This document shows positions 2,838 to 51,443 of a stretch of 60,084 bases of DNA, piece after piece. The notes under the pieces are model-generated. The model was not told the DNA's origin. It ran no database searches and was given only the letters and a program-made list of their open reading frames with translations. The position numbers and the translations under genes were made by a program. Position 1 is the stretch's first letter, and each line of letters begins with the position of its first letter. Source of the DNA: a virus; IMG/VR virus record IMGVR_UViG_3300030331_003909, positions 1 through 60,084 of that record. One strand, 5' to 3'.

Positions 2838-4061
2838 ATGGCAAAATACAAAGTATTAGTTATTCCTAGTGATAGAACAGGGGTTTCTAAATTCAGGTCA
2901 GTAGACCCACACCTATATCTTCAAAAACTATATCCAGATGACTTTTGGGTTGACATTGATTATGAACCTAAATTAAATGATGAAAATTTTTTAAAAAAAT
3001 ATGATTTAATTCACTATCACAGAACATTACACCCCAACTACGAACTTTCACAACAGATAGCACCTAAAATTAAAAAACTAGGTATCCCAGCTATTATGGA
3101 TATAGACGATTACTGGTTACCAAATCCAGAACATCCCGCCTATATGTTAATACGAAATAAAGGTATGGATAAATTAATTATGAATAATCTTAAGGTAGCT
3201 GAGTACGTCACTACCACCACACCATTATTTAAAAAAGAAATTTTAAAACAATGTAAAAAAGTATTTGTTTTACCTAACGCTGTAGACCCTAGTGAAAAAC
3301 AGTTTACCCCTAATCCAGAAAAAAGTGACCGTGTAAGGATAGGTTGGTTGGGTGGTTCATCTCATCTAGCAGATTTACAAATATTAAATGGTATGGTGGA
3401 CAGATTACACTCAATAAAAGATAGTATACAATTTGTATTGTGTGGTTTTGACACTAGAGGTACCATCACTGAATTAAATCCACAAACCAAACAAGAACGA
3501 ACTAGACCTATAAAACCGATGGAATCAGTATGGTACCAATATGAACAAATTTTCACAGGTAACTATCGTATAGTAGACGAAAAACAAAAAAAAGAATTAT
3601 ACAAATTTGATTTTGGTGTTGAGTATGGTGATAGTAACACACCATACCGTAGAGTATGGACTAAACCAATTACAACCTATGCTAGTAACTATAATAAATT
3701 TGACATTAGTTTAGCTCCTTTAAAACCACATTTATTTAATCAAGTTAAATCCCAACTTAAAGTAATAGAAGCGGGATTCCATAAAAAAGCTTTGATAGCA
3801 CAAAATTATGGGCCATACCAAATAGATTGTGTAAACGCTTATGAAAGAGGGGGTACCTTTAATAGTACTGGAAATTCATTATTAGTCGATGAAAATAGAA
3901 ACCACAAACAATGGTACCAACATATTAAAAGATTAGTCGATAACCCTAATTTAATGACTGACTTGGGGGAAAGATTATATGAGGCGGTACAGAAGTACCA
4001 CATAAAAAAGGTTACGGAAGACCGAGCCGAATTATATAAAGAAATAATAAAATCACATTAA
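2838..4061 (+). CDS. GT-B glycosyltransferase (group 1 type)
   Basis: This 407-residue soluble protein has a two-Rossmann GT-B organisation. The N-terminal half contains YDLIHYHRTLHP and IPAIMDIDDYWLP (about residues 90-110). The C-terminal half opens with VRIGWLGGSSHLADL, the usual start of the nucleotide-sugar-binding domain, and later has ISLAPLKPH and a KVIEAGFHKKALIA stretch resembling the donor-binding E-containing motif. Donor and acceptor cannot be read from sequence. It is first in the glycan operon, directly behind the host-type promoter, and would act in the cytoplasm. Confidence 0.8.
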   Translation: MAKYKVLVIPSDRTGVSKFRSVDPHLYLQKLYPDDFWVDIDYEPKLNDENFLKKYDLIHYHRTLHPNYELSQQIAPKIKKLGIPAIMDIDDYWLPNPEHPAYMLIRNKGMDKLIMNNLKVAEYVTTTTPLFKKEILKQCKKVFVLPNAVDPSEKQFTPNPEKSDRVRIGWLGGSSHLADLQILNGMVDRLHSIKDSIQFVLCGFDTRGTITELNPQTKQERTRPIKPMESVWYQYEQIFTGNYRIVDEKQKKELYKFDFGVEYGDSNTPYRRVWTKPITTYASNYNKFDISLAPLKPHLFNQVKSQLKVIEAGFHKKALIAQNYGPYQIDCVNAYERGGTFNSTGNSLLVDENRNHKQWYQHIKRLVDNPNLMTDLGERLYEAVQKYHIKKVTEDRAELYKEIIKSH

Positions 4062-4073
4062 AAAACAAAAAAC

Positions 4074-4304
4074 ATGTATTATCAAGCAATTGTAGCATTT
4101 GAAACCGGAGCTTTAGACGGTAATGGAAATCCTAAAGTTAAAAAATTTAAATATATTGTAGAGGCAGAATCTGTTTATGAAGCCACTACAAGAGTAAGTA
4201 AATATCTTGCTGAAGACACTAGAGATTCTGAAATAGTATCTTTAATAAAAGCACCATATGAAGACATTTTACACCCAACACTCACACCACAATATTATAA
4301 GTAA
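4074..4304 (+). CDS. Small DUF4494-like protein
   Basis: This 76-residue protein reads YQAIVAFETG, then KVKKFKYIVEAESVYEAT, then a C-terminal strand VSLIKAPYEDIL. That resembles the short DUF4494 family common in Bacteroidota and their phages: a strand, a VxAxSxxEA helix, then IKxAxYxEI. Function of the family is unknown. Its stop codon shares one base with the ATG of the next gene (TAATG), so the two are translationally coupled. Confidence 0.55.
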   Translation: MYYQAIVAFETGALDGNGNPKVKKFKYIVEAESVYEATTRVSKYLAEDTRDSEIVSLIKAPYEDILHPTLTPQYYK

Positions 4305-4999
4305 TGATTAGTGATATAAATAAACTTTTATTTTTAGATATCGAAACTGTTGGTATCGAAGAAGATTTAGATTCTTTACATATTAAGTTTCCACATTTAA
4401 GTAAAATGTGGGACGAAACTGGATACGATTACTGTAGAAGAAGGTACGCAAACGAAGACCTATACAGCAGTGAAATGTTTATTAAAAAAGCAGCTTTACT
4501 TCCTGAGTTTGGTAAAATAGTTTGTGCGTCTGTGGGGTTTATAACACCTAATGGTCAAATTAAATTAGATAGTTTTGTTGGTGATGAAAAGGACATTCTA
4601 AGTAACATTTGTGAGTTATTTAACAGGGTCGACAAATTAGGATTTAAAATTTGTGGACATAATATAAAAAACTTTGATTTACCGTACATAGGAAAAAAAA
4701 TGTTAGTACATGGAATAACTTTACCTAAAATTTTACCTACTTACAACGATAAACCTTGGGAGACTAAGGTAGTTGACACTAAAGAGGTTTGGGGATTCAA
4801 TTCTTATATCGGATTATCTTCATTAGACCTAATTTGTGCTTCGTTGGGAATTAATTCACCTAAAGGTGGAGATTTAAAGGGGGACCTATTACACCAATTT
4901 TATTATAGTGAAAAAAAAGATATAAATAAAATAAAAACTTATTGTGAAAATGATGTTACTGCCACAATAAAGTTAGTTAAAAAAATTACAAAATGTTAA
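4304..4999 (+). CDS. DnaQ-superfamily 3'-5' exonuclease (PolB-exo-like)
   Basis: This 231-residue protein carries all three DEDD exonuclease motifs: ExoI LFLDIETVG (Asp12, Glu14), ExoII CGHNIKNFDLPYI with the conserved Asp, and ExoIII YCENDVTATIKL (YxxxD type). The spacing and the HNxxxFDxP form of ExoII resemble the stand-alone predicted PolB-like exonuclease family. It would remove 3' nucleotides from DNA or RNA in replication, repair or host DNA breakdown. It overlaps the dUTPase gene downstream by 7 nt, giving a small nucleic-acid pair inside the glycan operon. Confidence 0.8.
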   Translation: MISDINKLLFLDIETVGIEEDLDSLHIKFPHLSKMWDETGYDYCRRRYANEDLYSSEMFIKKAALLPEFGKIVCASVGFITPNGQIKLDSFVGDEKDILSNICELFNRVDKLGFKICGHNIKNFDLPYIGKKMLVHGITLPKILPTYNDKPWETKVVDTKEVWGFNSYIGLSSLDLICASLGINSPKGGDLKGDLLHQFYYSEKKDINKIKTYCENDVTATIKLVKKITKC

Positions 5000-5622
5000 A
5001 AAAATATGAAGACCTTAAAAATGTAATAGGTCAATTAGATAAATTAAAAGAACTAACCTCAGAACTTAATAAATCTAATGAGGAGACACCTACTTTAAAA
5101 GAACAGTGGGGAATAGATTTAGAAGACTTAGAGAATTTAAAAATAGACGATTCACATACTTTTAAAAAACCTAAAGTACAAGTAAAATTTATTAACAAAA
5201 GTAATAACGTAGACCCTTCTTATTTTTATGAAGGAGATAGTGGATTTGATTTTAGAGCTGACCTTAAAGAAGAAAAAATAACAGTTAAAAGTGGTGGTCG
5301 TAAAATCATTCCGACAGGCCTTTACTTTGAAGTGCCGAGAGGTTATGAATTACAAGTAAGACCTCGTAGTGGATTAGCTGCCAAATATGGAATTACAGTT
5401 TTAAACACTCCAGGAACTGTAGATAGTAATTACAGGGGTGAAATAAAAATTATATTAATAAACTTAGGAGAAGAAGATTTTATTGTTGAAAACGGTGATA
5501 GGATAGCTCAAGGTGTCATTTCTTCGGTTTTAGATAATGTGTGGGGTGAATTAAAATCTGTTGAATCTTTAAACGATAGTAATCGGCAAGACTCTGGATT
5601 CGGTAGTACTGGAAAAAAATAA
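4993..5622 (+). CDS. dut: dUTP diphosphatase with N-terminal extension
   Basis: dUTPase hydrolyses dUTP to dUMP and PPi, keeping uracil out of phage DNA. All five trimeric-dUTPase motifs are visible: DSGFDFRAD, RPRSGLAAKYGI, the TVDSNYRGEI motif with the catalytic Asp, GDRIAQGVI and the C-terminal RQDSGFGSTGK. The protein has 209 residues against about 140-150 usually. The surplus is an N-terminal region of about 55 charged residues, probably coiled, that is not part of the fold. It overlaps the exonuclease gene upstream. Confidence 0.93.
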   Translation: MLKKYEDLKNVIGQLDKLKELTSELNKSNEETPTLKEQWGIDLEDLENLKIDDSHTFKKPKVQVKFINKSNNVDPSYFYEGDSGFDFRADLKEEKITVKSGGRKIIPTGLYFEVPRGYELQVRPRSGLAAKYGITVLNTPGTVDSNYRGEIKIILINLGEEDFIVENGDRIAQGVISSVLDNVWGELKSVESLNDSNRQDSGFGSTGKK

Positions 5623-5628
5623 AATAAA

Positions 5629-6594
5629 ATGCAAAAAAATACTATACTCATAACTGGAGGGGCTGGCTTCATAGGTTCACATTTAGTTAAATTCATGGTA
5701 GAAAAGTACCCACATTATGAAATTCACGTAATAGATTCTCTAACCTATGCTGGTAATTTAGAAAATTTAAAATCTGTAGAAGATAAAATTACTTTTCACA
5801 AAATGGACATTAGTCTTACTAGGTTTATGGATTCCATATATGAATTGTACAAATTTGACGGTGTTATAAATTTAGCCGCTGAAACACATGTTGATAATTC
5901 CATAGAGGAACCTAATATTTTTTTAAATACTAATATAATAGGAACGTGTAATCTAATAAAAAATGCTGTAAAGTATAAAAGTAGATTTTTACAGGTCTCT
6001 ACCGATGAAGTATATGGTTCCCTACAGTTTAATGATGGTAGAACTTTTTATGAATTCACCCCTTTTAAACCTCAGTCACCGTATGCTGCTTCTAAAGCCT
6101 CTGCAGATTTATTAATTGATTCTTTTGTGAACACTTATGGATTAAATGCGTCAATAACACACTGTTCAAATAATTATGGTTCCCACCAACACCCAGAAAA
6201 ATTAATACCTAAAACTATAAAATGCCTTAAAGAAAATATACAAATACCAATATACGGTAATGGAGAAAATATACGTGACTGGATACATGTAGATGACCAT
6301 GTAAAAGCTTTAGATTTAGTTTACCATACTGGAAAAATGGGTGAACATTATAATGTTGGTGGTGGTAATGAATTTTCTAATTTAGAACTTGTTAAATTGA
6401 TATGTAGAAATTATGATACTTTAAAAGGTTTTGTTCCTGGTACTGGAGCAAGATTAATATCATTTGTTAAAGATAGGTCAGGTCACGACCTAAGATATTC
6501 TATAAATTATGATAAAATATACACCAAACTTAGGTGGAAACCAGAAATAAATTTTTCACTAGGCATAGTAGAAACTATTAAATCTTATATGTAA
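5629..6594 (+). CDS. rmlB: dTDP-glucose 4,6-dehydratase-type SDR
   Basis: This extended short-chain dehydrogenase of 321 residues has the NAD-binding TGGAGFIGSH at 9-18, the dehydratase signature STDEVYGS (Thr125, Asp126, Glu127) and the YAASK pair (Tyr152, Lys156). These are the residues of RmlB/RfbB, which makes dTDP-4-keto-6-deoxyglucose. Length is slightly short of the usual 340-355. No RmlA, RmlC or RmlD partner is in the window, so the substrate might be supplied by the host or be a different NDP-sugar. Its stop overlaps the start of the next glycosyltransferase. Confidence 0.85.
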   Translation: MQKNTILITGGAGFIGSHLVKFMVEKYPHYEIHVIDSLTYAGNLENLKSVEDKITFHKMDISLTRFMDSIYELYKFDGVINLAAETHVDNSIEEPNIFLNTNIIGTCNLIKNAVKYKSRFLQVSTDEVYGSLQFNDGRTFYEFTPFKPQSPYAASKASADLLIDSFVNTYGLNASITHCSNNYGSHQHPEKLIPKTIKCLKENIQIPIYGNGENIRDWIHVDDHVKALDLVYHTGKMGEHYNVGGGNEFSNLELVKLICRNYDTLKGFVPGTGARLISFVKDRSGHDLRYSINYDKIYTKLRWKPEINFSLGIVETIKSYM

Positions 6595-8153
6595 TGATAA
6601 GTGTAATTTATTGTACTAAAGAAGATTATCCTTCACATATTGAACACATAAAAAAAACTTGTGGTGTAAAAGATATAGAAATTATTCAGTACATTAACAA
6701 AGGAGAACCACTTACTAAATTTTATAATAAAGGACTATGTGAAAGTAAAAATGAAATTGTGGTTTTTTGTCATGATGACATTATCTTCAATACTAAAAAC
6801 TGGGGAAAAAAATTATTAAACCATTTTAAAAATACCGATTTTGGTATTTTGGGGGTGGCAGGTACGACTAATATGCCATCAACAGGTAAATGGTGGGAGG
6901 AACCACAAAAAATGATGGGACAGGTAAGACATTCTCATGAAGGTAAGTCTTGGGATAGTATATATTGCCCTAGTTTTGGTGATTCTATATTACAGTCAAT
7001 TCTAGTCGATGGGTTATTTTTTGCTATTGACAAATCAAGAATTAAAAATGAATTTTCTAAAGAATTTAAAGGTTTTCATTTTTATGAAATAGATTTTTGT
7101 ATTTCTAACCACCTATCGGGTGTTAAGGTTGGAGTCATTTCAAATATAAGAATTACCCACAAATCTATAGGGATGACCAACGAAGAGTGGGAAAAAAATA
7201 GAAAACAATTTGTTAAAAAATACACGTATGATTTACCCATTAATTTAATACCACAAATTTTTTCAAAAAATAAAAATATTAAATTAAAAAAGAACCCTAA
7301 AGTAGGTGTCATTATACCCACCAAAGGCAATATAGAGTTACTAACTAATTGTATAAACTCATTATGGGACAATGACGACTACGAAAATATGGTTGTATAT
7401 ATTGCCGACACAGGTTCATCTAAAGATGAAAAAAATAAGATACATAAATTAATAAATGGTTATAATAAAAAAACTGACAGAAACAGAGACACCAGAGTAA
7501 TAGAATACGATTATTATAATTTTGCTAAAATTAATAATGATGTGGTTAAAAACCATATAGATGACGATACTGAATTAATATTATTTTCTAACAATGACAT
7601 AAAATTACTTAATAATGGTATATCCCAGATGGTTAATGTTTTTAATACCAAAAAAAATACTGGTACAGTAGGAATAAGATTACATTTTGGGGATGGTACT
7701 ATACAGCATTCTGGAGTTATGGCTTTTGTAGACCAACAACACAACATTAGGATAACTCACCACGGTCTTGGTTCTTATTTTAATTATCACCAACATACAA
7801 AAGAGGTTTTCGGCAATACAGCAGCCTTCATGATGATTAGAAAAAACACATTTAAATCTTTAAATGGTTTTAATGAAAACTACACTGAATGTTTTGAAGA
7901 TGTAGAATTGAATATAAAATGTTTAAATAAAAACTTAAAAAATTATTTTTTAGGTGAAAGTGTAGCATACCATTACGAAAGTCAAACCAGAAAAAAAGAC
8001 CCTAACAAATTAAAAAAAGAAAGTGAAGATTATGTCAATAGGTTAATGCCAACCATAATAAATAATAAAAAATGTTATAATTATTTTTCTAACATTAGTG
8101 TTTTACAACTTAGACATTTAATTCACCATAAATTTAAAGAACAATTAACATAA
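6594..8153 (+). CDS. Two-domain GT-A glycosyltransferase
   Basis: This 519-residue protein seems to contain two glycosyltransferase-2-like domains. The first (about 1-225) reads ISVIYCTKEDY and IVVFCHDDIIF, with a CHDD metal/nucleotide motif. The second opens with VGVIIPTKGNIELL at about 238, followed by ILFSNNDIKLL and GTVGIRLHFGDGTIQHSGV, and has an FEDVELNIKC stretch typical of GT2 enzymes. Such tandem enzymes often build disaccharide repeats, but the linkage cannot be read. It overlaps RmlB upstream by one base. Confidence 0.8.
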   Translation: MISVIYCTKEDYPSHIEHIKKTCGVKDIEIIQYINKGEPLTKFYNKGLCESKNEIVVFCHDDIIFNTKNWGKKLLNHFKNTDFGILGVAGTTNMPSTGKWWEEPQKMMGQVRHSHEGKSWDSIYCPSFGDSILQSILVDGLFFAIDKSRIKNEFSKEFKGFHFYEIDFCISNHLSGVKVGVISNIRITHKSIGMTNEEWEKNRKQFVKKYTYDLPINLIPQIFSKNKNIKLKKNPKVGVIIPTKGNIELLTNCINSLWDNDDYENMVVYIADTGSSKDEKNKIHKLINGYNKKTDRNRDTRVIEYDYYNFAKINNDVVKNHIDDDTELILFSNNDIKLLNNGISQMVNVFNTKKNTGTVGIRLHFGDGTIQHSGVMAFVDQQHNIRITHHGLGSYFNYHQHTKEVFGNTAAFMMIRKNTFKSLNGFNENYTECFEDVELNIKCLNKNLKNYFLGESVAYHYESQTRKKDPNKLKKESEDYVNRLMPTIINNKKCYNYFSNISVLQLRHLIHHKFKEQLT

Positions 8154-8154
8154 C

Positions 8155-8937
8155 ATGAAACTAGGTATTAGTTATAATATTTTTGACGGAGAAGAACTTT
8201 TAGAAGAATCTATAAAAAGTATAAGAAATAAAGTAGATTATATTTCAGTTGTCTACCAAGAAATTTCTAACTTCGGTAATCGGTGTAATGAAGGTTTAGT
8301 ACCACTACTAAAAAAATTAAAATCTGACGGTTTAATAGATGAATTGTACAAATATAAACCACAATTAAATAGTGGTGGCCATACTAATGAAATAACTAAA
8401 AGAAATATAGGTTTATTTCTATCTGAAGGTAATGGGTGTACACACCACATGGCCATGGACTCTGATGAATTTTACACTGAAAAACAATTACAGTATTTAA
8501 AAGAAACAATGTTAATTGAAGATTTAGATTCTTCAGCTTGTCAAATGACAACATACTATAAAGAACCCATTTATAGACTAGAACCCAAAGAAGAATATTA
8601 TGTCTCTTTAATTTTTAAAATAAAAAGAGGTAAACAATATGTTATGGGTTGTCCATTTCCGGTTTTAGTTGACCCAACTAGAAGAATGGAACCTGGTAAA
8701 TGTAAAATTTTTACTAGGGAAGAGGTTGAAATGCATCACATGAGCTATGTTAGAAAAGATATTAAAGTAAAGTTGACAAATTCTTCAGCTTCACCTAATT
8801 TTAAAAATATAGACAAAATAGTTAATTATTATAATGATTGGTCTTATGGGAAACAAGCTTTAATGGGGGGAGCTCCAGATAAATTTTACGATATTGTAAA
8901 AGAACAAAAAAAATTTAATTTAAATGTACAAAATTAA
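8155..8937 (+). CDS. Probable GT-A-like glycosyltransferase
   Basis: This 260-residue protein begins KLGISYNIFDGEELLEESI, which resembles the first strand-helix of glycosyltransferases that start IfNGEELLxesI. It has an HHMAMDSDEFYTEKQL segment whose DSDEFY could act as the DxD metal site, and later histidines (VEMHHMSYV). It starts 1 nt after the preceding glycosyltransferase and overlaps the next gene by 14 nt. Transferase activity is likely from context and the DxD; the family is not certain. Confidence 0.6.
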   Translation: MKLGISYNIFDGEELLEESIKSIRNKVDYISVVYQEISNFGNRCNEGLVPLLKKLKSDGLIDELYKYKPQLNSGGHTNEITKRNIGLFLSEGNGCTHHMAMDSDEFYTEKQLQYLKETMLIEDLDSSACQMTTYYKEPIYRLEPKEEYYVSLIFKIKRGKQYVMGCPFPVLVDPTRRMEPGKCKIFTREEVEMHHMSYVRKDIKVKLTNSSASPNFKNIDKIVNYYNDWSYGKQALMGGAPDKFYDIVKEQKKFNLNVQN

Positions 8938-10060
8938 TCAAACCTTATTTTCACAACCAGAAACAGTTTTAAAACAACAACAATTTAATAACCTAGAAAA
9001 ATATGTTAATTTAGAATGTGATTTAACTATTAAAGGAAACGTGTTACCAGCTGTTGGGACCCTGGAAGACTACTTTAATAAAGAAGACATATCTATTTTT
9101 GATTTATTTAGAATAATTTCAGAAAGGCAATTCAAAAGAAAAGTTAAACCGGACATTAAATTAAATAAATTAGCGGTGATTAAAACTAAAGCTAAAATAT
9201 CTTTTAAAGATAAAGACTCTTGGAGGAATGACCCGTTATTTTCCGAATACTCTAAATATAAAGATAACTTTATCAATGGGGATGTTTTTACCCCTATAAT
9301 CCTTACTCACCCTGGAGTTTTAAAGGATTATATGTTTACAGATGTCCCAGAATTTTTATATCAAGTAGATGGTATGCATCGCGTAATGTCAGCTTTGGAA
9401 GCTGGTAAAACAGAACTAGATTGTTATGTTATAGTAAGACGTATGGATTTAAAGAAATACTTAAGAACTATGGATAAAGAAGTTATTAATTCATTTGGGT
9501 CTACGTGTACATGGTTCCCTAGGTACCAAGAAATAAAAGAAGTCGGACTTAAAGGCCAAAGAGTTCAAGAACCTAGATATACAGAAATTTATGATTTTAG
9601 TAATTTAAAAGATAAAGTAGTTGTGGATTTTGGGGGTAATCTAGGGCAAGCAGCAATTGAGGCCTACTTTAACGGAGCTAAGAAAATATACAATTTTGAT
9701 TATCAAGAATGTGTAATTAATACTGGAGCTAAAATTTCAGAAATATTAGGTTTAGATATTGTGAACAATACGATAGACTTTAATTTAGATACTTTTGAAA
9801 AAGATGTCGAAGATACCGTTAAGGAATGGGACTGGACCATTTATCAAGCAATTTATAGAACTAAAGAAATCATAGATGTAAATAAAAGTTTTACTTATAT
9901 AGTAAAAAACACTAAAGAGGGTATGTACTTCGAAGGTAATGGAGCTGCTGAAATAGACACACCTGAATTTTACGATAACGTATTTAAACCGTTTAACTTC
10001 AAAGAAATAAATTATCTAGGACACAGTCAATTGCGTCCGGCATATAAAATAATAAAATAA
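8924..10060 (+). CDS. ParB-like domain fused to a SAM methyltransferase-like domain
   Basis: This 378-residue protein has two parts. The N-terminal half contains FTPIILTHPG and then YQVDGMHRVMSALEAGK (Gly150, His152, Arg153), the G-x-H-R signature of ParB/sulfiredoxin-like domains. The C-terminal half starts KVVVDFGGNLGQAAIEAYFNG at about 231, a class I methyltransferase motif I, followed by KIYNFDYQE with an acidic motif II. In some ParB-like proteins the GxHR motif binds nucleotide. A role in modifying a sugar, or a kinase-like step in the glycan route, is only inference. It overlaps the neighbours on both sides. Confidence 0.6.
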   Translation: MYKINQTLFSQPETVLKQQQFNNLEKYVNLECDLTIKGNVLPAVGTLEDYFNKEDISIFDLFRIISERQFKRKVKPDIKLNKLAVIKTKAKISFKDKDSWRNDPLFSEYSKYKDNFINGDVFTPIILTHPGVLKDYMFTDVPEFLYQVDGMHRVMSALEAGKTELDCYVIVRRMDLKKYLRTMDKEVINSFGSTCTWFPRYQEIKEVGLKGQRVQEPRYTEIYDFSNLKDKVVVDFGGNLGQAAIEAYFNGAKKIYNFDYQECVINTGAKISEILGLDIVNNTIDFNLDTFEKDVEDTVKEWDWTIYQAIYRTKEIIDVNKSFTYIVKNTKEGMYFEGNGAAEIDTPEFYDNVFKPFNFKEINYLGHSQLRPAYKIIK

Positions 10061-10719
10061 TGGAAAAAGTATTAGGCATTGTAGTACCATATAGAGATAG
10101 AGAATCTCATTTAGCTGAGTTCATACCTCACATGACACAGTTTTTAAAAAACATTAATCATAAAATAGTCATAGTTGAACAATCCGATGAAAAACCATTT
10201 AATCGTGCTAAACTCCTTAATGTGGGTTATGAGTTTCTTAAAAAAGAATGTGACTATTTTTGTTTTCATGACATAGACTTATTACCAATAGAAAACGCAA
10301 ATTATGATTATGTGGAAACCCCAACACACTTGGCTAGACTTTTGGAACATTTAGGTTGGAGGGTGCACTATGAAGAATTATTTGGTGGTGTGACTATGTT
10401 TAATAAAGAAGATTTTGAAAAGGTTAATGGTTTTAGTAATGAGTACTGGGGCTGGGGCGGTGAAGATGACGACTTAAGATTAAGGTGTGTAAAAGAAGGT
10501 TTTGAAATACATAAAAGAATGAATAAATATAAATCTTTACCTCATAGATATGCTGGCCCACACCACGATAATTATGAAAATAATAGAAATAAAATGAGAG
10601 ATTTTAGAGATACCCCTGGCAATAATTACCATAAAGAAGAAGGCCTCAACACCTTAATTTATGAAATTGTAGGTGTGGAAAATAAAGTAGACCATACAAT
10701 TGTAAAAGTAACTTTATAA
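10060..10719 (+). CDS. GT7 beta-1,4-galactosyltransferase-like enzyme
   Basis: This 219-residue protein follows the catalytic domain of metazoan beta-1,4-galactosyltransferases almost end to end: VVPYRDR (8-14), FNRAKLLNVGY (47-57), the DxD motif HDIDLLP (Asp71, Asp73), LFGGV (107-111), YWGWGGEDDD (129-138), a metal-ligand-like HHD (168-170) and GLNTLIYE (195-202). In the animal enzyme the residue before FGG is Tyr289, which sets Gal preference; here it is Leu107. Family knowledge says Ile or Leu there favours UDP-GalNAc. There is no transmembrane anchor or stem. It likely adds Gal or GalNAc to a GlcNAc-type acceptor. It overlaps both neighbours by one base. Confidence 0.88.
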   Translation: MEKVLGIVVPYRDRESHLAEFIPHMTQFLKNINHKIVIVEQSDEKPFNRAKLLNVGYEFLKKECDYFCFHDIDLLPIENANYDYVETPTHLARLLEHLGWRVHYEELFGGVTMFNKEDFEKVNGFSNEYWGWGGEDDDLRLRCVKEGFEIHKRMNKYKSLPHRYAGPHHDNYENNRNKMRDFRDTPGNNYHKEEGLNTLIYEIVGVENKVDHTIVKVTL

Positions 10720-11318
10720 TGGCAGTTTCGGAAAAATATAAAATATTATTTATACACATACCCAAAAATGCGGGTACTTCTCTTATAAACAAGTTAAGTC
10801 TTTACCCACACGGTCACTATGATTGGCGTACACACCCAAAATTTAATGGACCTTATCACAAATTTAGTATTGTTAGAAATCCATGGGATAGAGTTGTTTC
10901 CTGTTATGAATTTGCTAAAATGGAAAAAAGTTATTGGCATTCTAAAGATGACCACACTAAACACCCTGATTATGATTTATGTCACTCTTTAACGTTTAAA
11001 GAATGTGTTAGACTTCTTCAAGAAAAACCAAACAAGTTTACTCATCCAGGATGGAAAAACCAACATACATACATCGTAAATGACGAAGATAAAGTTGTGG
11101 TCGATTCTGTATTAAAAATGGAAAATTTAGATACTGAATTAAATAACCTATTTAGGAAATTAGGTATAAATGAAAATGTAAATATTCCTAAAACTAACAC
11201 ATCTAATAGGGGAAACTATAAGGATTACTACGATAAAGAATCCATAGAAATTATTAAAGACATATACCAAAAAGACATAAATTTCTTTAATTACGAGTTT
11301 GATAATAATAACTTATAA
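10719..11318 (+). CDS. PAPS-dependent sulfotransferase (family 2 type)
   Basis: The 199-residue protein has the two PAPS-binding elements of sulfotransferases: the 5'-phosphosulfate loop FIHIPKNAGTSL (about 11-22) and the 3'-phosphate motif FSIVRNPWDRVVSCY (about 49-63). The HIPKNAGT form is characteristic of the carbohydrate sulfotransferase group (Sulfotransfer_2) that sulfates sugars such as HNK-1 and chondroitin. It lies one base after the GT7 enzyme, so a sulfated sugar built by its neighbours is the likely acceptor. PAPS would have to come from the host; no PAPS synthesis gene is seen. Confidence 0.85.
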   Translation: MAVSEKYKILFIHIPKNAGTSLINKLSLYPHGHYDWRTHPKFNGPYHKFSIVRNPWDRVVSCYEFAKMEKSYWHSKDDHTKHPDYDLCHSLTFKECVRLLQEKPNKFTHPGWKNQHTYIVNDEDKVVVDSVLKMENLDTELNNLFRKLGINENVNIPKTNTSNRGNYKDYYDKESIEIIKDIYQKDINFFNYEFDNNNL

Positions 11319-11339
11319 TTACTTAATATAAAATAAATA

Positions 11340-12080
11340 ATGAAACTAATTGTATCCACATCAGACAAATATGAAGACGTTCTAAAAGTTTACTGTTTTC
11401 TTTTTAATAAATTTTGGTCCTCTAAACAAGAAGTAGAAGTAATCGGTTATAAACATCCTTCATTTGAACTACCATCTAACTTTAGTTTTCACAGTATGGG
11501 TGAAGATAGGGGCACAAAATTTTGGTCCGATGATTTAAAAAAATATTTTAATTCATTAGAAGAAAAATTTTTTATATACACTATGGAAGATAATTTTTTA
11601 ACTTCTAAGACTGATATAGAATCCATAAACAAAATAGAAAATATATTACACGATAAAGTAGGTAGGGTAGACTTAACAGATGTTTTTACTAGAATGTCTG
11701 AAGGTGTAATACAACCCCACTCTTTATATAAAGACCTTGATGGGTTAAAAATTTATGTTAGAGGACAAAATGCTAAATGGAGAGCGTCTTTTCCATTGTC
11801 TATATGGAATAAGGATTATCTTCTAAGAATTTTAAAAAAACCCAATATGACCCCGTGGGATGTAGAAAATTATGGTAACATAATTAGTAGGAATGATGGG
11901 TACGATATATTAGGTACTAAACATACAGAAAAGGTAATATCACCTAGAAATGAAGGGGTGTCGACCTTTAATAACAGTAGTGGACTTTTTAAATATAGAT
12001 TACACGACATAGACCCAAAAGTTATAAAAGAAATGGAAGAGAAAGGTATACTTCCTAAACATATAGAAAAACTAGTTTAA
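11340..12080 (+). CDS. Hypothetical protein of the glycan operon, possibly GT-A-like
   Basis: This 246-residue soluble protein starts KLIVSTSDKYEDVL and has FFIYTMEDNFLTSK at about residues 78-91. The latter resembles the acidic nucleotide/metal loop (LEDDF) of some glycosyltransferase-like folds. A Trp-rich stretch (KWRASFPLSIWNKDYLL) lies in the second half. I recognise no named family. Its position between a sulfotransferase and a cupin supports a role in glycan assembly; catalytic function is unproven. Confidence 0.5.
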   Translation: MKLIVSTSDKYEDVLKVYCFLFNKFWSSKQEVEVIGYKHPSFELPSNFSFHSMGEDRGTKFWSDDLKKYFNSLEEKFFIYTMEDNFLTSKTDIESINKIENILHDKVGRVDLTDVFTRMSEGVIQPHSLYKDLDGLKIYVRGQNAKWRASFPLSIWNKDYLLRILKKPNMTPWDVENYGNIISRNDGYDILGTKHTEKVISPRNEGVSTFNNSSGLFKYRLHDIDPKVIKEMEEKGILPKHIEKLV

Positions 12081-12083
12081 TCG

Positions 12084-12497
12084 ATGGAAAAGGTATATTC
12101 AAAAGTAGAACCTAATAAGTTATTACATATAATAAATCGTTTAGAAGAAATAGAGGGCAGATGTGATGTAGTACCTCAGGAAAACTTCATACAATGTGCC
12201 ACCATGAAAATGGATAAAGGTAAAACGTTTCTACCCCATAAACACATCACAAAAGATAGACACTATCCAAATCAAATAGCTCAAGAATCTTGGATTGTAA
12301 TTAAAGGTAGTGTTAAATGTAAATTTTACGACCTAGACGATAGTTTAATAGCTGAACCTATTCTAGGCCCAGGAGATGCGAGTTTTACTCTCTACGGTGG
12401 TCACACATATGAAATATTAGAAGAAGATACGATAGTATATGAATATAAAACAGGACCCTATGAAGGTCAAAAATTAGATAAAGAGTTCATAAAATGA
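12084..12497 (+). CDS. Cupin-fold protein of the glycan operon
   Basis: This 137-residue protein reads as a single-domain cupin: the metal-type motif LPHKHI at about 52-57, ESWIVIKGSVKCKFYD (about 71-86) and the second-motif strand GDASFTLYGGHTYEIL (about 94-109). Small cupins in sugar clusters include ketoisomerases and epimerases acting on dTDP-4-keto sugars, which would fit the RmlB-type enzyme at 5629, but the catalytic His/Tyr pattern of those is not clearly present. It overlaps the next gene by 4 nt (ATGA). Confidence 0.65.
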   Translation: MEKVYSKVEPNKLLHIINRLEEIEGRCDVVPQENFIQCATMKMDKGKTFLPHKHITKDRHYPNQIAQESWIVIKGSVKCKFYDLDDSLIAEPILGPGDASFTLYGGHTYEILEEDTIVYEYKTGPYEGQKLDKEFIK

Positions 12498-13132
12498 AAG
12501 AAATAGATTTAAATTTAATTAAAAAAAGTTTTTCTAAAGAGTTTATAAAAGAATTAAAAAATTGTTATAATGACTATTTTTCCACCTCTAAATCTATAGA
12601 TAACCAACATTACTTCGGTACTCTAGGCACATATACAAATAGAAACGATAAACATATAAATAAAGAAATTTCTGACTACTTTGAAAGATTATTATTTTTA
12701 CCTAATATAACAATATTAGATTATATTTTAAAAAATTTAGATAAATTTTCTAAATTAAATTTTATAGATAACGGTGCTGGATTAGGATTGTTATCTATTT
12801 TTTTAAAAGAGCTCGGGATAACGTGTTTTAATTACGATAATTATTCTCAGATTTCTAATGTTACATTTCATGAAATAGTTAAAAACAGATTAAGTGTTGA
12901 AATTATGCCTGTAACTAATAATATAGATTTATTAGGTAATTTTAAAGGTGATGTAATTACATCTTCAGGTATATGGTTAAGTTCACCCACATTCAATAAA
13001 ATGGATATAAAATGTGTTTTAATGGACTCTTTTTATTTTGGTAGAGGCACTGAAAATTCTTTAATAGACAGATGTGAATTAACGTTAAAAGGTGAATATG
13101 AAGGAGCGATAAAAATATATAGTAAAATATAA
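12494..13132 (+). CDS. SAM methyltransferase-like protein
   Basis: The 212-residue protein contains NFIDNGAGLGLLSIFLKELG (about residues 93-112), a motif I of class I methyltransferases, followed by ITCFNYDNYSQ with an Asp at the SAM-ribose position. The rest is divergent and the post-motif region (GDVITSSGIWL) is poorly conserved, so it may be a specialised or degenerate member. It overlaps the cupin gene by 4 nt and precedes a clearer methyltransferase, suggesting O-methylation of a sugar or a paired enzyme. Confidence 0.5.
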   Translation: MKEIDLNLIKKSFSKEFIKELKNCYNDYFSTSKSIDNQHYFGTLGTYTNRNDKHINKEISDYFERLLFLPNITILDYILKNLDKFSKLNFIDNGAGLGLLSIFLKELGITCFNYDNYSQISNVTFHEIVKNRLSVEIMPVTNNIDLLGNFKGDVITSSGIWLSSPTFNKMDIKCVLMDSFYFGRGTENSLIDRCELTLKGEYEGAIKIYSKI

Positions 13133-13136
13133 TATC

Positions 13137-13679
13137 ATGGTAAAAATAAATATGGGTTGTGGTTGGAGGAATTTTGGTTCTGAGTGGACACATATAGATG
13201 GTGGTAATTACGACCATTTAGATAGTCATTCTATAACACATTTAAATTATGAAGATAATACTGTAGATTTAATTTACGCTTCTCATGTATTGGAGTACTT
13301 TGATAGGGAAGAAGTGAGTGAAGTTTTAGAAGAATGGTACAGAGTTTTAAAACCTGGAGGAATTTTACGGTTAGCGGTTCCAGATTTTGAAGCGATGGCT
13401 AGGTTATATTTAAATAAAAATACACCACTAAAAGAATTTTTAGGTCCTTTATATGGGAAAATGGAAATGGGTGGTAAAAACATATACCATAAAACAACTT
13501 ACGATTTTAAGAGTTTACATTCAAAACTAAAATCAATAGGTTTTAAAGAACCAAAAAGATATAACTGGAGAAATTATTCAGTTCATATTAAAAATGATGA
13601 CCACTCACAATCTTACAAACCTCACATGGATAAAGAAAATGGCACTTTAATAAGTTTAAATTTAGAGACACATAAATAA
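13137..13679 (+). CDS. Class I SAM-dependent methyltransferase
   Basis: This 180-residue protein starts with motif I in the form INMGCGWRNFGSEWTHIDGG. It then has DLIYASHVLEYFDREEVSEVL (motif IV region, about 42-62) and WYRVLKPGGILRLAVPDF (motif V/VI, about 67-84). That is the pattern of the type-11/25 methyltransferases frequent in polysaccharide loci, where they methylate sugar hydroxyls. It overlaps the fucosyltransferase gene by one base, so a methylated glycan product is plausible. Confidence 0.8.
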   Translation: MVKINMGCGWRNFGSEWTHIDGGNYDHLDSHSITHLNYEDNTVDLIYASHVLEYFDREEVSEVLEEWYRVLKPGGILRLAVPDFEAMARLYLNKNTPLKEFLGPLYGKMEMGGKNIYHKTTYDFKSLHSKLKSIGFKEPKRYNWRNYSVHIKNDDHSQSYKPHMDKENGTLISLNLETHK

Positions 13680-14533
13680 TGGATAAACTTAAAATTAAAT
13701 TTGTTGATTTTTGGCCGGGATTTAACCCGTCTACTGACCCTCTATTTGGGGAATTTTTAAACAGACATTTTAATGTGGAATATAGTAATAATCCAGACGT
13801 AGTAATATTTAGTGTTTTTGGTACTTCACATAAATATTTTACTAAAAAAAATGTAATTAAAATATTTTATGCTGCTGAAAATTTTCCATTTCGTCCTTAT
13901 CCAGCATTAGATATGGTAAAAGGGTGGGATAAAGTTATAGAATTTTCACATTATAGTATCACCCCATTTAACGTCGATTACCCAACAAATTTCCGAATGC
14001 CTCAGTATCTTAGAAAATATGGATTTAAAGTTAAAGATGAAATTGACAACACTAGAGAAAAATACATTAAACCTAAAGATATTGTCTATCTTCAACGTAG
14101 TTGTGTTTCTTTCCGAGATGATATGGTGAAAGATTTAATGAAAAAATTTAGAGTAGATTGTGTCGGCAACTGTTTACGTAATAAAAATGTAACAGTAGGA
14201 GAAGATAAATTAGGTTTTATTAAAAATTATAATTTTGTTATTGCTATTGAAAATTCCTGTTCTCCTGGGTATACTTCAGAAAAAATTATTGACCCGTTTA
14301 AAGTAAATTCCATACCCATTTATTTTGGAGATTCCGAAATAACTAAAGATTTTAATGGAAATACTTTTTTAAATTATCACACACAAACCAAAGAAGAAAT
14401 ATATGACCAAATTTCTATGTTATTAAATAATAAAGATAAACTACTAGAAATGATGTCTTATGAAAAAATAAAAAATCACAGTTTATATGATGGGGATATA
14501 TTCCTTAAATTTTTTAAAAACTGTTTAAGATAA
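13679..14533 (+). CDS. GT10 alpha-1,3-fucosyltransferase-like enzyme
   Basis: The 284-residue protein carries the GT10 layout: KIFYAAENFPFRP (about 61-73, replacing YFGENxRP), the LQRSCVSFRDDMV segment, and the donor-binding core YNFVIAIENSCSPGYTSEKI (184-203) with IPIYFGDSEITKDFN (212-226). GT10 enzymes transfer L-fucose from GDP-fucose, usually alpha-1,3/1,4 to GlcNAc, making Lewis-type structures in animals and in Helicobacter and Bacteroides. Next to it are the two GDP-fucose biosynthesis genes (14533 and 16812), which strongly supports the donor. There is no membrane anchor. Confidence 0.88.
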   Translation: MDKLKIKFVDFWPGFNPSTDPLFGEFLNRHFNVEYSNNPDVVIFSVFGTSHKYFTKKNVIKIFYAAENFPFRPYPALDMVKGWDKVIEFSHYSITPFNVDYPTNFRMPQYLRKYGFKVKDEIDNTREKYIKPKDIVYLQRSCVSFRDDMVKDLMKKFRVDCVGNCLRNKNVTVGEDKLGFIKNYNFVIAIENSCSPGYTSEKIIDPFKVNSIPIYFGDSEITKDFNGNTFLNYHTQTKEEIYDQISMLLNNKDKLLEMMSYEKIKNHSLYDGDIFLKFFKNCLR

Positions 14534-15453
14534 TGAAAACTATGGATAAAATACTAATAACGGGAGGCCGTGGATTGGTCGGAACACAATTCGTGGGTAA
14601 AAATTACACACATCTATCTTCAAAAGACTGTGATTTAAGAAAAACTGAAGATACTGAAAATGTATTTAAAGAAAAATGGGATGCTATAATTCATTGTGCA
14701 GCTAAAGTAGGTGGATTAGGTAGTAATATGAGATTTAAAGGGGAATTTTTTTATGATAATATTATGATAAATACAAATGTCATAGAATCCGCAAGAAAAT
14801 TTAATGTTAAAAAATTAATTGTATTTTTATCTACCTGTGTTTTTCCAGATAATGTAGAGTATCCATTAACTGAATCTAAAATTCATCTAGGTCCTCCACA
14901 TACTTCTAATAATGCATACGCTTACGCAAAAAGAATGGCGGACATCCAAGTTAGAGCATATAAAGAACAATACGGGCTCCAGTACACATGTGTGATACCA
15001 ACTAATATTTACGGACCTAATGATAATTTTAATATAGAGAATGGGCATGTAATACCATCATTAATTCATAAATGTTATTTATCTAAGTTAAATAACAAAC
15101 CTTTTTATGTGTGGGGAAGTGGAACACCTTTAAGAGAATTTATTCATAGTGAAGATATCGCAAAACTTACTGAATTAATATTAGAGAGTGGGTATGATGA
15201 CGATGAACCTATCATACTTTCTACGTCAGAAGAAATCTCAATAAAAGAAGTTGTAGAAACTATAGTAGAATCCTTTGAATTTAAAGGTCAAGTTGTTTGG
15301 ATGAGTGATAAACCAGACGGGCAATATCGTAAACCCAGTGATAACACAAAGTTAAAAAAATTATTTCCTAATTATAAATTTAAACCATTTAAAGAAGGAA
15401 TTAAAGAGACTGTACAATGGTTCGTTGAAAATTATGAAAAAGCTAGAAAATAA
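14533..15453 (+). CDS. fcl: GDP-L-fucose synthase
   Basis: The enzyme converts GDP-4-keto-6-deoxymannose to GDP-L-fucose with NADPH (3,5-epimerase and 4-reductase). Seen are the Rossmann loop TGGRGLVGT (10-18), the family hallmark HCAAKVGGLGSNM (about 54-66), FLSTCVFP with Ser100, the YAYAK catalytic pair (Tyr129, Lys133), VIPTNIYGPNDNF and VWGSGTPLREFIHSED. These are typical of WcaG/Fcl. The 306-residue length is normal. The start could also be the second Met (MDKI). It directly follows the GT10 fucosyltransferase that would use the product. Confidence 0.93.
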   Translation: MKTMDKILITGGRGLVGTQFVGKNYTHLSSKDCDLRKTEDTENVFKEKWDAIIHCAAKVGGLGSNMRFKGEFFYDNIMINTNVIESARKFNVKKLIVFLSTCVFPDNVEYPLTESKIHLGPPHTSNNAYAYAKRMADIQVRAYKEQYGLQYTCVIPTNIYGPNDNFNIENGHVIPSLIHKCYLSKLNNKPFYVWGSGTPLREFIHSEDIAKLTELILESGYDDDEPIILSTSEEISIKEVVETIVESFEFKGQVVWMSDKPDGQYRKPSDNTKLKKLFPNYKFKPFKEGIKETVQWFVENYEKARK

Positions 15454-15475
15454 AATATTAATTTGGATATTATAA

Positions 15476-16132
15476 ATGAAAATTTACGAAATACACAATG
15501 GTATGGTTTGGCACAACCGTAGGTATGATTTAGGTTTAATGGGTATTCCTAAATGTATGTCTACTACGTTAAAAAACCAATTTGGATTAACAAAACTAGG
15601 ACACATTACAAATTTACCAGAATCTATGATAAATAATAAAAAAATTATTTCTATAGTTAGAGACCCTTTGATTAGATATGTTTCGGGTTACCTAGAGTCA
15701 ATGATATCAACAAGTGATTATCCTAAAGGTAGGTATCATATGATTCCATTACCTGATGGATTAAAAGGTAAGTTAAATAATCTTTTTATGGTTAAAGATG
15801 AGATTGTTAAATTTAAAAAATTTACTGATTATATTTTTGAATATGGTTATTTTGAACCTCATATAGTCCAACAAGTAGATTATATAAGAGATTTAAAGAC
15901 TAAAAGTTTTTATAAAAATATTAACATATTTAAACTAGAACACATAACTAATCTTGAAAATTTCTTAGGTCATAAATTAAAAACTCTAAATATTAGTGAA
16001 CATCAATTATTGAAAAAGTCACTAATACAATTTATACGTACTGATAACGAATACAAGGAAAAAATAGAAAATTTATACAATGAAGATATAAATTTTTATA
16101 AGTCTTTCAATGAAAAAACAATAACTAAATAA
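15476..16132 (+). CDS. Second sulfotransferase-family protein
   Basis: The 218-residue protein has LMGIPKCMSTTLKNQF at about 21-36, the 5'-phosphosulfate loop, and IISIVRDPLIRYVSGYLE (57-74), the 3'-phosphate-binding RxPxxRxxS element. Both resemble the sulfotransferase at 10719 but the proteins are otherwise different, so they are not a recent duplication. It would transfer sulfate from PAPS to a sugar. Its stop lies 1 nt before the DegT-like gene. Confidence 0.75.
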   Translation: MKIYEIHNGMVWHNRRYDLGLMGIPKCMSTTLKNQFGLTKLGHITNLPESMINNKKIISIVRDPLIRYVSGYLESMISTSDYPKGRYHMIPLPDGLKGKLNNLFMVKDEIVKFKKFTDYIFEYGYFEPHIVQQVDYIRDLKTKSFYKNINIFKLEHITNLENFLGHKLKTLNISEHQLLKKSLIQFIRTDNEYKEKIENLYNEDINFYKSFNEKTITK

Positions 16133-16133
16133 T

Positions 16134-16733
16134 ATGAGTTTTAATAAAGTAAAAGAGTTTGAGGAAGGGGTATCTAAATTTTTTGGTGCACCTTATGGGA
16201 TAGCTGTAGATAGTTGTACCCACGGAATTGAGTTGTGTTTAAGAAGAAATGGTGATAAACTTATACGTGTACCAAATAGGACTTACATATCAGTCCCTTT
16301 TTTAGCGGAAAAATTAGGCATAGATTTAATATGGGAAGATATAGAATGGAAAGATTATTATTATCTCACCAACGATATAATTGATGCTGCTGTATTATGG
16401 AAAAAAAACAGTTATATTCCAGGGACATTTATGTGTTTAAGTTTTCAATTTCAAAAACATTTATCATTAGGTCGTGGAGGAATGATTCTAACAGACAATA
16501 AAGAAGCCACTGACCACCTTAAAAAAATGTCTTATGATGGTAGAATCCCCAACATTCCTTGGAGAGACCAAGACATAGATACTCTAGGTTACCACTATTA
16601 CATGACTCCAGAAACAGCTCAAAAAGGTTTAGATAAATTAGATAAAGCGATTGAATCTAAACCCCGACAATGGGTTATAAATGATTGGCCCGACTTATCA
16701 AAAATGGAAGTGTTTAAAAAAATATATAAATAA
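16134..16733 (+). CDS. Half-size DegT/DnrJ/EryC1-type PLP protein
   Basis: This 199-residue protein resembles the large PLP domain of sugar aminotransferases. It has FFGAPYGIAVDSCTHGIELCL (a GTxA-like loop), VPNRTYISVPFL, an Asp84 in DIIDAAVLW where PLP N1 is bound, and SFQFQKHLSLGRGGMILTD with Lys108 in the aldimine position. Family members usually have 360-400 residues; the small C-terminal domain is missing here. The frame stays open for 22 codons after the stop (16734-16802), which could be a lost tail. It might be a compact 4-keto-sugar aminotransferase or a decayed one. Confidence 0.65.
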   Translation: MSFNKVKEFEEGVSKFFGAPYGIAVDSCTHGIELCLRRNGDKLIRVPNRTYISVPFLAEKLGIDLIWEDIEWKDYYYLTNDIIDAAVLWKKNSYIPGTFMCLSFQFQKHLSLGRGGMILTDNKEATDHLKKMSYDGRIPNIPWRDQDIDTLGYHYYMTPETAQKGLDKLDKAIESKPRQWVINDWPDLSKMEVFKKIYK

Positions 16734-16811
16734 TCTAATAATATTAAAACTATTTACGAAAAGAGCTTTGGTGATTATATTAATAAAAAGAGAATCAAAT
16801 AAATTAAAAAT
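16734..16811 (+). other. Intergenic spacer with in-frame coding-like tail
   Basis: The 78-nt gap between the DegT-like gene and gmd holds no promoter or hairpin I can support. Directly after the DegT stop, 22 sense codons in the same frame read like protein (IKTIYEKSFGDYINKK) before a TAA at 16800-16802. This may be the remains of a longer gene. Confidence 0.35.
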
Positions 16812-17801
16812 ATGAAAAAAGCATTTATTACGGGTATAGGAGGACAAGATGGAAGTTATCTTGCCGAATACTTAGTAGAGCTTGGATATGATGTACACGG
16901 GATTGTCAGAAGAAATTCTACTCCAGAACACCAAGATACTAGATTAAATCATTTAGAAGGTAAAATAAAAACTTATTATGGTGACCTATTAGACCAAGGA
17001 GGGTTAGAGAGGCTTTTGGATAAGATACAACCTGACGAAATATATAATATTGCTGCACAATCACATGTTAGAATTAGTTTTGACATACCACAATTTACAG
17101 TACAAACTAATTCCTTAGGTGTTTTAAATATTTTAGAAGCCTATAGAAGGAGTTGTCCAAACTCTAAGTTCTATCAAGCTAGTTCTTCGGAAATGTTTGG
17201 TTTAACTGTAGACGAAGATGGGTTTCAAAGAGAAACTACAGTAATGAATCCAGTATCACCTTATGGGTGTTCTAAAGTATTTGGTTATAATATTGTTAGA
17301 AATTACAGAAGAGCTTATAAATTACACGCAACTAATGGAATACTATTTAACCACGAATCACCTAGAAGAGGGTCAAATTTTGTAACAAACAAAGTGGTAA
17401 AAGCGGCAGTTAGAATTAAACTAGGATTACAAGATAAACTAGAACTGGGTAATATGGACTCTTATAGAGACTGGGGTCACTCTTATGATTATGTTAGAGC
17501 AATGCATCTTATGTTACAACAAGATGAACCTGGTGATTGGGTTGTTTCTACAATGGAGACTCATTCAGTCAGAGAAATGTGTGACGTTGTTTTTAAACAT
17601 TTAGATTTAAATTATGAAGATTACGTAGTTCAAAACCCAAAATATATGAGACCTGAAGAACTACCATATTTAAAAGGAGACTCTACTAAAATTAGAACTG
17701 AGCTTGGGTGGAAACCTAAATATAGTTTTAAGATGTTAATGGAGGAAATGGTGGACCACTGGATGAAAGTTTACAGTGCAAAACAAGAAATAAGTTATTA
17801 A
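16812..17801 (+). CDS. gmd: GDP-mannose 4,6-dehydratase
   Basis: The enzyme dehydrates GDP-D-mannose to GDP-4-keto-6-deoxymannose, the first step toward GDP-L-fucose. Evidence: the NADP loop ITGIGGQDGSYLAEYL (6-21), the IVRRNSTP motif that contacts NADP(H), YNIAAQSHV, the catalytic SSSEMFG (Ser126, Glu127) with YGCSK (Tyr151, Lys155), NHESPRRGSNFVT and YRDWGHSYDYV. These are signature blocks of Gmd. The 329-residue length is slightly short but complete. Together with fcl at 14533 it gives the whole two-enzyme GDP-fucose route. Confidence 0.95.
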   Translation: MKKAFITGIGGQDGSYLAEYLVELGYDVHGIVRRNSTPEHQDTRLNHLEGKIKTYYGDLLDQGGLERLLDKIQPDEIYNIAAQSHVRISFDIPQFTVQTNSLGVLNILEAYRRSCPNSKFYQASSSEMFGLTVDEDGFQRETTVMNPVSPYGCSKVFGYNIVRNYRRAYKLHATNGILFNHESPRRGSNFVTNKVVKAAVRIKLGLQDKLELGNMDSYRDWGHSYDYVRAMHLMLQQDEPGDWVVSTMETHSVREMCDVVFKHLDLNYEDYVVQNPKYMRPEELPYLKGDSTKIRTELGWKPKYSFKMLMEEMVDHWMKVYSAKQEISY

Positions 17802-44687: not shown

Positions 44688-46553
44688 TTATTTTACTTCT
44701 TCGTATTCAACGTCAGTTGCCTGTTCTTCATTATCCTCACTTGTAACTGGTTCTTCAGTTTGTTGATAGATTTTAGTAGTTATTGATTGCCATTCTTCAT
44801 TTAGTTTTTCTAAACTACTATCAATTAATCCTATATCTTCTTTTTGATGAGATTCTTTAAGATTATCTAGACATTCATTAAGTTTATTTACATCTTCCTC
44901 ACTTAATTTATCACCAAATTCTTTTATTTGTTTTTCGGTTTGGAAAATCATGGAATCAGCCTCATTTAATTTTTCTACTTTTTCCTTTTTTTCTTGGTCT
45001 TTGGCTTGATTCTGTTCAGCTTCCATTTTCATTCTTTCGATTTCTTCATCTGATAAACTACCTCCCGATTCAATTTTAATGTTCTGAGATTTTCCAGTAC
45101 CTTTATCTTTTGCACTCACACTAATAATACCATTAGCGTCAATATCGAAAGTCACCTCAATTTGTGGAATACCTCTAGGTGATGGTGGTATATCCGTTAG
45201 TTGGAATCTTCCTAGACTTCTATTATCGGTAGCCATAGGTCTTTCCCCTTGAAGTACGTGTATATCTACAGATGGTTGATTGTCTACTGCTGTAGAGAAT
45301 ACTTGAGACTTAGATGTCGGAATTGTACTGTTAGACTCAATTAATGTGGTCATTACTCCACCCATTGTTTCAATACCCAGTGAGAGTGGGGTGACATCTA
45401 ATAATAACACATCATTCACGTCTCCTGACAATACACCTCCTTGGATTGCTGCTCCCATCGCTACTACCTCATCTGGATTCACCCCCTTAGATGGTTTACG
45501 TTTAAAGAACTTTTCTACCGACTCTTGGATTATAGGAATTCTAGTAGAACCCCCAACTAAAATTACCTCATCAATTTCACTTACTTTAAGTTTAGCGTCT
45601 TTAAGAGCTTTTTCACAAGGTTTAATACTTCTCTTTACTAAATTATCCACCATTGTTTCAAACTTAGACCGTGATAGTGAAACTACTAAGTGTTTAGGTC
45701 CCGTAGAATCGGCAGTTAAATAAGGTAAATTAATTTCAGTATTAGTAGATGAAGATAATTCTACTTTTGCTTTTTCAGCCGCTTCTTTGATTCTTTGTAA
45801 AGCCATGGGGTCTTTACTAATGTCAACTCCGTTCTCTTTTTTAAACTCAGTGATTATCCAATCCATAATTACTTCGTCAAAATTATCCCCACCTAAATGA
45901 GTGTCACCATTTGTAGAAAGTACCTCAAAAACACCATCACCCATTTCTAAAATAGAAACATCAAAAGTACCACCACCTAAATCATATACTACAACTTTTT
46001 TATCTTTATTATCATCAAGACCATAAGCTAGTGAAGCTGCGGTTGGTTCATTTATAATTCTTAAAACATTTAATCCCGCAATTTCTCCCGCTTCTTTAGT
46101 TGCATTTCTTTGTGAATCATTAAAATAAGCTGGTACAGTAATAACAGCATCTGTCACTGTTTCACCCAAGTATTCTTCAGCTGTCTTTTTAAGGTTTTGT
46201 AAAACCACAGCTGAAATTTCTTGTGGAATATAATCCGTATCATCTATTTCTATACCTACACCATTATTATGTATTTGTGATACTTTATATGGCATTTTAC
46301 TTGCCTCTTTTTTAATTTCTGAGTATGTACTACCCATAAATCTTTTTACTGAGTAGATAGTTTTTTCAGGATTAGTGACCGCTTGTCGTTTAGCTGGGTC
46401 ACCAACTACCCTTTCTCCTTTATTTTTAAAAGCTACTACAGATGGCGTGGTTCTTTGACCTTCACCATTAACAATAACTTTAGGTTCGTTACCTTCAATT
46501 ACGGCAACACAGGAATTTGTTGTTCCTAAATCTATACCAATTACTTTTCCCAT
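44688..46553 (-). CDS. dnaK: DnaK (Hsp70) chaperone
   Basis: This full-length 621-residue Hsp70 refolds or holds client proteins with ATP. Present are the phosphate loop [13 protein letters not shown] (5-17), [50 protein letters not shown], the linker [10 protein letters not shown] and a substrate-binding domain with a lid. The C-terminus ends in an acidic EEVK. No DnaJ or GrpE gene is in the window, so host co-chaperones are probably used. It is very close to bacterial DnaK, suggesting fairly recent capture, and is divergent from the clpC gene. Confidence 0.97.
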
Positions 46554-51246: not shown

Positions 51247-51269
51247 CTTTGTATTCATCACACAAACAT

Positions 51270-51354
51270 GCTCGGGTGGTGGAATAGGTAGACACGAGGG
51301 ACTTAAAATCCCTTGGCCATTGTGGCCGTGCGGGTTCGATTCCCGCCCCGAGTA
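51270..51354 (+). tRNA. tRNA-Leu (UAA)
   Basis: This class II tRNA has a 7-bp acceptor GCTCGGG/CCCGAGT (first pair G-U), a T-arm GCGGG-TTCGATT-CCCGC, a long variable arm built on GGCC/GGCC, and an anticodon loop CTTAAAA giving UAA. CCA is not fully encoded. It reads UUA, the most used Leu codon of this AT-rich genome. Confidence 0.92.
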
Positions 51355-51361
51355 CCCAAAT

Positions 51362-51435: not shown

Positions 51436-51443
51436 CTAAATAT

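Follow-up and report, generated by a model that had tools for sequence, protein, structure and literature searches.

Glycosyltransferases of family GT7 are usually treated as a family of the animal Golgi. In animals, the synthesis of Lewis x and of fucosylated LacdiNAc begins with a GT7 enzyme, after which a GT10 fucosyltransferase acts. The animal enzymes include B4GALT1-6 (CAZy GT7) and the invertebrate beta-1,4-GalNAc transferases (those of Drosophila and Bombyx, the latter called GalNAcT, and NGAT-1 of C. elegans), which are Golgi enzymes with shown activity. The donor used by animal GT7s follows the residue at the position of Tyr289 of B4GALT1: Tyr or Phe goes with Gal, and Leu or Ile goes with GalNAc (PMC5560668). 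Bombyx GalNAcT, which has Ile, works at about 3,700 nmol/h/mg with UDP-GalNAc and at 158 with UDP-Gal, and the fly enzyme, once its Ile289 has been changed to Tyr, has mainly galactosyltransferase activity (PMC7943597). At a second position, the change of bovine Arg228 to Lys moves donor use away from Gal and towards Glc (PMC7185993). Outside animals, GT7 proteins are present in alphaproteobacteria and in giant viruses, i.e., viruses of eukaryotes (Megaviridae, Aureococcus anophagefferens virus). Among phages, the cyanophage S-SCSM1 has a GDP-mannose 4,6-dehydratase (GMD), a GDP-fucose synthase and fucosyltransferases; the latter are of the O-fucosyltransferase, alpha-1,2 and NodZ types, and no GT10-GT7 pair was reported (PMC9602691). 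A literature search combining the GT7 Pfam accessions with viruses found nothing relevant, and the context of the phage GT7 analysed here is little described.

The DNA under study (the window, 60,084 nucleotides) is part of a 62,088-base virus record in IMG/VR. An earlier note, made from the letters alone, had seen in it a metazoan-like beta-1,4-galactosyltransferase of a phage. The genome is indeed that of a T4-like tailed phage, with terminase, portal, prohead protease and major head protein, the terminase having about 28% identity to its counterpart in Flavobacterium phage immuto. The window also encodes a chaperone that is DnaK-like in sequence and a Clp-type ATPase (44688-46553 and 46752-48791), the chaperone matching PHROG 22485 (7.7e-259, function unnamed) and the ATPase PHROG 4871 (ATP-dependent protease), together with a Leu(TAA) and an Arg(TCT) tRNA gene at 51269-51436.

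The open reading frame at 10060..10719 on the plus strand encodes a predicted soluble GT7 beta-1,4-Gal/GalNAc transferase of 219 amino acids, and overlaps both neighbouring genes via TAATG at its start and stop. Both Pfam domains of the family are found far above their cut-offs: Glyco_transf_7N (PF13733; E=1.9e-20, 73 bits, cut-off 27) and Glyco_transf_7C (PF02709; E=3.5e-26, 91 bits, cut-off 23). Among sequences of solved structures, the best matches are fly (Drosophila) B4GALT7 (6.5e-38) and human/bovine B4GALT1 (4e-36). An AlphaFold2 model, for which the input was 42 window and locus sequences, has a mean pLDDT of 95.6 and a pTM of 0.92. In a Foldseek search, this model has the GT-A fold of the B4GALT structures and ranks B4GALT1 at the top (TMq up to 0.90, rmsd 2.1 A), followed by B4GALT7 and then the chondroitin synthases; the fold is also shared with the giant-virus enzymes (TMq 0.80-0.82), whereas identity to these is 26-27%. 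Comparison with an 82%-identical homologue from another viral locus (L051) shows purifying selection on the gene (dN 0.12, dS 1.66, dN/dS about 0.07). Chance is excluded as an explanation of the GT7 identity, and the protein is assigned as a new member of a family that was itself already known. Unlike B4GALT1-6, the phage protein has no stem, no N-terminal membrane segment or anchor and no signal, but begins at the first strand, which agrees with the earlier description.

Relatives of this protein were found in at least 452 IMG/VR viral loci and in 39 bacterial genome loci; among 50,697 isolate phage records, there was no match at E 1e-5, and weak matches to mycobacteriophage glycosyltransferases (E 0.1 and above) were rejected as evidence of GT7. 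Viral GT7s have a short form, as in the window, and a long form of about 480-500 amino acids, often two or three in tandem. In the long form, the catalytic domain is interrupted, after WGWGxEDDD and before the C-terminal His/GLN part, by a LamG/concanavalin-type domain. This insertion is supported by Pfam and by an AlphaFold2 model (pLDDT 85), and examples are L004:7950-9392, L004:6244-7734, L005, L063, L070 and many others; possibly, it is a lectin-in-transferase architecture. Long GT7s with the insertion are also present in three contigs of Flavobacteriales/Flavobacteriaceae metagenome-assembled genomes (L014, L015, L047), which are probably phage contigs or prophages; if so, they indicate Bacteroidota hosts.

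The motifs of the animal beta4GalTs that the earlier note had listed are present in the phage protein (FNRAKLLNVGY; DID, 71-73; FGG, 108-110; WGWGGEDDD, 130-138; GLNxLxY, 195-201), with one exception as regards their meaning: HHD occurs at 168-170, but these columns vary across the family and the invariant histidine is H162. The DxD metal motif, WGWGGEDDD (with the catalytic residues E135-D136-D137) and the C-terminal metal histidine are all in place, H162 being the presumed metal ligand. Among 44 short viral forms, D71/D73, D136 and H162 are kept in 44 and E135 in 43, and W132 and R49 (equivalent to bovine Arg228) in nearly all. The phage enzyme has equivalents of Arg228, Tyr286 and Trp314 of the animal enzymes. 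Given the donor shift seen in the Lys variant of Arg228, retention of R49 would favour a galacto donor.

At the position of Tyr289, the phage enzyme has Leu107. This equivalence is based on a gap-free alignment block and on the global fold match (TM 0.90), and upholds the substitution that had been proposed. An aliphatic residue here, Leu or Ile, is what distinguishes the beta-1,4-GalNAc transferases (LacdiNAc synthases) of invertebrates; their activity has been shown, whereas that of the phage enzyme is predicted. The L051 homologue likewise has Leu107. Since Leu107 would leave room for an N-acetyl group, UDP-GalNAc is a plausible donor, the balance tilts slightly towards its use being at least equal to that of UDP-Gal, and donor use is probably relaxed or GalNAc-leaning. 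Among the short viral forms, the residue at this site is Tyr in 32, Leu in 3, Ile in 3, Asn in 2, Phe in 2, Glu in 1 and Cys in 1; among the long forms (one representative per locus) it is Tyr in 47, Trp in 4 and Ile in 1. It is Thr or Ser in bacterial GT7s of the Azospirillum type and mostly Tyr in other bacteria; outside animals, Thr, Ser, Ala, Asn, Glu and Cys also occur. Tyr is the usual state, Leu, Ile and Asn are confined to few branches, and at least ten changes between aromatic and non-aromatic residues have taken place on the tree. Because the site varies so freely in prokaryotes and viruses, the residue alone cannot settle the donor; across such a distance, a single residue suggests a donor rather than fixing it.

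The fucose, fucosyltransferase and sulfotransferase genes around GT7, passed over in the earlier note, say more about the product than does the donor residue. GT7 lies in a co-directional island (2838-17801), in which all the following genes are on the plus strand. A carbohydrate sulfotransferase (Sulfotransfer_2, PF03567, 2.3e-19) at 10719..11318 overlaps the GT7 stop with its start and matches PHROG 3347, 'Galactose-3-O-sulfotransferase' (5.5e-16); a second sulfotransferase is at 15476..16132 (PF03567, 1e-6, 29.5 bits, cut-off 22). At 13679..14533, 3 kb from GT7 and not adjacent to it, there is a GT10 alpha-1,3-fucosyltransferase, in which both domains exceed their cut-offs (PF00852, 4.9e-13, 49.6 bits against 23.9; FucT_N, 2.4e-12, 47.5 bits against 27.2) and of which the best solved relative is the H. 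pylori FucT (2nzw, 2.7e-13). It is followed by a GDP-L-fucose synthase at 14533..15453 (human GDP-L-fucose synthase 4e5y, 1.5e-93; best NCBIfam model NF047922, 4.4e-70, under its cut-off) and, at 16812..17801, by GMD (1n7g, 2.3e-96; TIGR01472, 388 bits, cut-off 415), which is also present in the L051 and L052 viruses. Together, the last two are predicted to make up a complete route from GDP-mannose to GDP-fucose. A clear GalE or UDP-GlcNAc 4-epimerase was not found in the virus record. The remainder of the island includes a dTDP-glucose 4,6-dehydratase (RmlB-like; 5629..6594; TIGR01181, 396 bits, cut-off 365), a double-domain GT2-type glycosyltransferase (6594..8153; PF13712, 3.1e-32; PF00535, 6.8e-11), a WbuC-like cupin that may be a sugar isomerase (12084..12497; TIGR04366, 1.5e-8, below cut-off), a short DegT/DnrJ aminotransferase-like protein of 199 amino acids (16134..16733; PF01041, 1.7e-17), kept in L051, and methyltransferases. 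Directly upstream of GT7, the protein at 8924-10060 is without a Pfam or PHROG match; by eye, its N-terminal stretch resembles ParB and its C-terminal half a SAM-methyltransferase. A related phage (L060) has the genes starting at 2838, 6594, 19378 and 20471 in common with the window, whereas different genes flank its GT7 (which has Leu before YGG and a shortened loop), and this implies turnover of the island between related phages.

The combination of GT7 with GT10 recurs. Using a profile built from Pfam-confirmed GT10 members, GT10 genes were counted within the flanking DNA of distinct GT7 loci. They are present near GT7 in 19/44 short-form viral loci versus 0/52 LamG-inserted long-form viral loci (Fisher p 2.5e-8, although related rows are not independent), and in 20/21 Azospirillum-type loci versus 0/20 other bacterial loci. 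In 12 of the short-form viral loci GT10 lies within 700 bases downstream of GT7, and in 4 more within 700 bases upstream. A reciprocal scan starting from GT10 yielded 13 loci, in 11 of which GT7 is adjacent, and the linkage has changed at least nine times on the tree. The Pfam match of GT10 is above cut-off in L051, L065, L066, L087, L104, L007 and L036, and below it in L053 and L055, which are Ile-type viruses. A special tie of Leu/Ile variants to GT10 was considered and is not supported (6/10 non-aromatic versus 13/34 aromatic viral rows). The less ordinary features here are the extent of the viral family, the repeated pairing with GT10 and, in related phages, the LamG-inserted long form.

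Starting from the observed homology, fold, residue alignment, purifying selection and gene linkage, we infer the activity, donor, acceptor, order of steps and target as follows. GT7 would be a soluble, metal-dependent, inverting GT-A enzyme acting in the infected cell, where it would extend a terminal acceptor of the GlcNAc type with a beta-1,4-linked galacto-configured sugar (GalNAc and/or Gal). GMD and GDP-fucose synthase would convert host GDP-mannose to GDP-fucose, from which GT10 would attach fucose in alpha-1,3 linkage beside the sugar added by GT7, and the sulfotransferases may cap the glycan. This would yield, on a surface component of phage or host, a structure of the Lewis-x type or of the fucosylated LacdiNAc type. 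Because the animal order for such glycans is GT7 and then GT10, serial action is the simplest reading, and most likely the two enzymes act in series on a structure of this type. We consider it reasonably probable that GT7 adds GalNAc and/or Gal within a fucosylation/sulfation island in this way. The more specific proposal, that a tailed phage has a complete line for fucosylated, possibly sulfated LacdiNAc (LDNF-type) decorating virion or host surface, with GT7-GT10 as a recurrent viral module, is put forward tentatively.

The same enzyme and cassette could instead use UDP-Gal and make LacNAc or Lewis-x-type structures, with Leu107 of little effect. Most GT10-linked viral GT7s retain an aromatic residue at site 107 (13/19), so the linkage does not point to GalNAc specifically; the adjoining sulfotransferase matches a PHROG that names galactose-3-O-sulfation and, read literally, that name speaks for Gal; and even Bombyx GalNAcT, with its Ile, still weakly transfers Gal (PMC7943597). 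Against this, Leu or Ile favours GalNAc in the characterised animal enzymes (PMC5560668, PMC7943597), and the window and L051 both retain Leu in a gene under purifying selection; UDP-Gal as the donor is judged a minority possibility.

A little less probable still is another donor or acceptor (e.g. Glc as donor; xylose or heptose as acceptor) in an O-antigen- or capsule-like chain, homology then meaning 'beta-1,4 hexosyltransferase' only. Identity to the animal enzymes is about 30%, the acceptor lobe (97-100, 163-185) is unlike that of B4GALT1, the xylose-acceptor enzyme B4GALT7 is equally close by sequence, and the RmlB, cupin, aminotransferase and GT2 enzymes share the island. However, R49 is retained, GT10 linkage is strong, and Y104 (equivalent to Tyr286), W132 and a conserved N-x-x-R/K helix (175-178) appear to recall the acceptor site of B4GALT1.

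Recent capture of the gene from an animal, which the similarity of motifs might suggest, is rejected as very improbable, given the number of viral loci and the tree, in which the window groups with L051 (99/99) and sits in a 12-row clade (97/98) with L051, L052 and GT7s of alphaproteobacteria, Azospirillum among them, while the two sequences that represent animals lie elsewhere. This tree did not include the invertebrate GalNAc transferases, and its deep branches are weak. Thus, 'metazoan-like' holds for the fold and not for kinship: the nearest cellular kin of the phage enzyme are the alphaproteobacterial GT7s (Azospirillum megaplasmids L007/L008; L023). These are likewise soluble with GT10 nearby, but have Thr or Ser at site 107, are about 33% identical to it, and have their GT10 a few kb off, not adjacent.

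Among environmental tailed phages, GT7 is a common enzyme in soluble form, recurrently linked to GT10 as in the animal Lewis-x pathway. The family in these phages offers a natural series of Tyr, Leu, Ile and Asn variants at its best-studied donor-specificity site, and the small soluble enzymes may be useful for synthesis of LacNAc or LacdiNAc. As GT7 shares its island with a fucose supply, a fucosyltransferase and sulfotransferases, animal-like sugar decorations made by a phage may follow, and the island provides a testable route to phage-made animal-type glycans. If the LDNF-type reading is true, an animal- or helminth-like glycan on the virion or host surface would be made by a phage.
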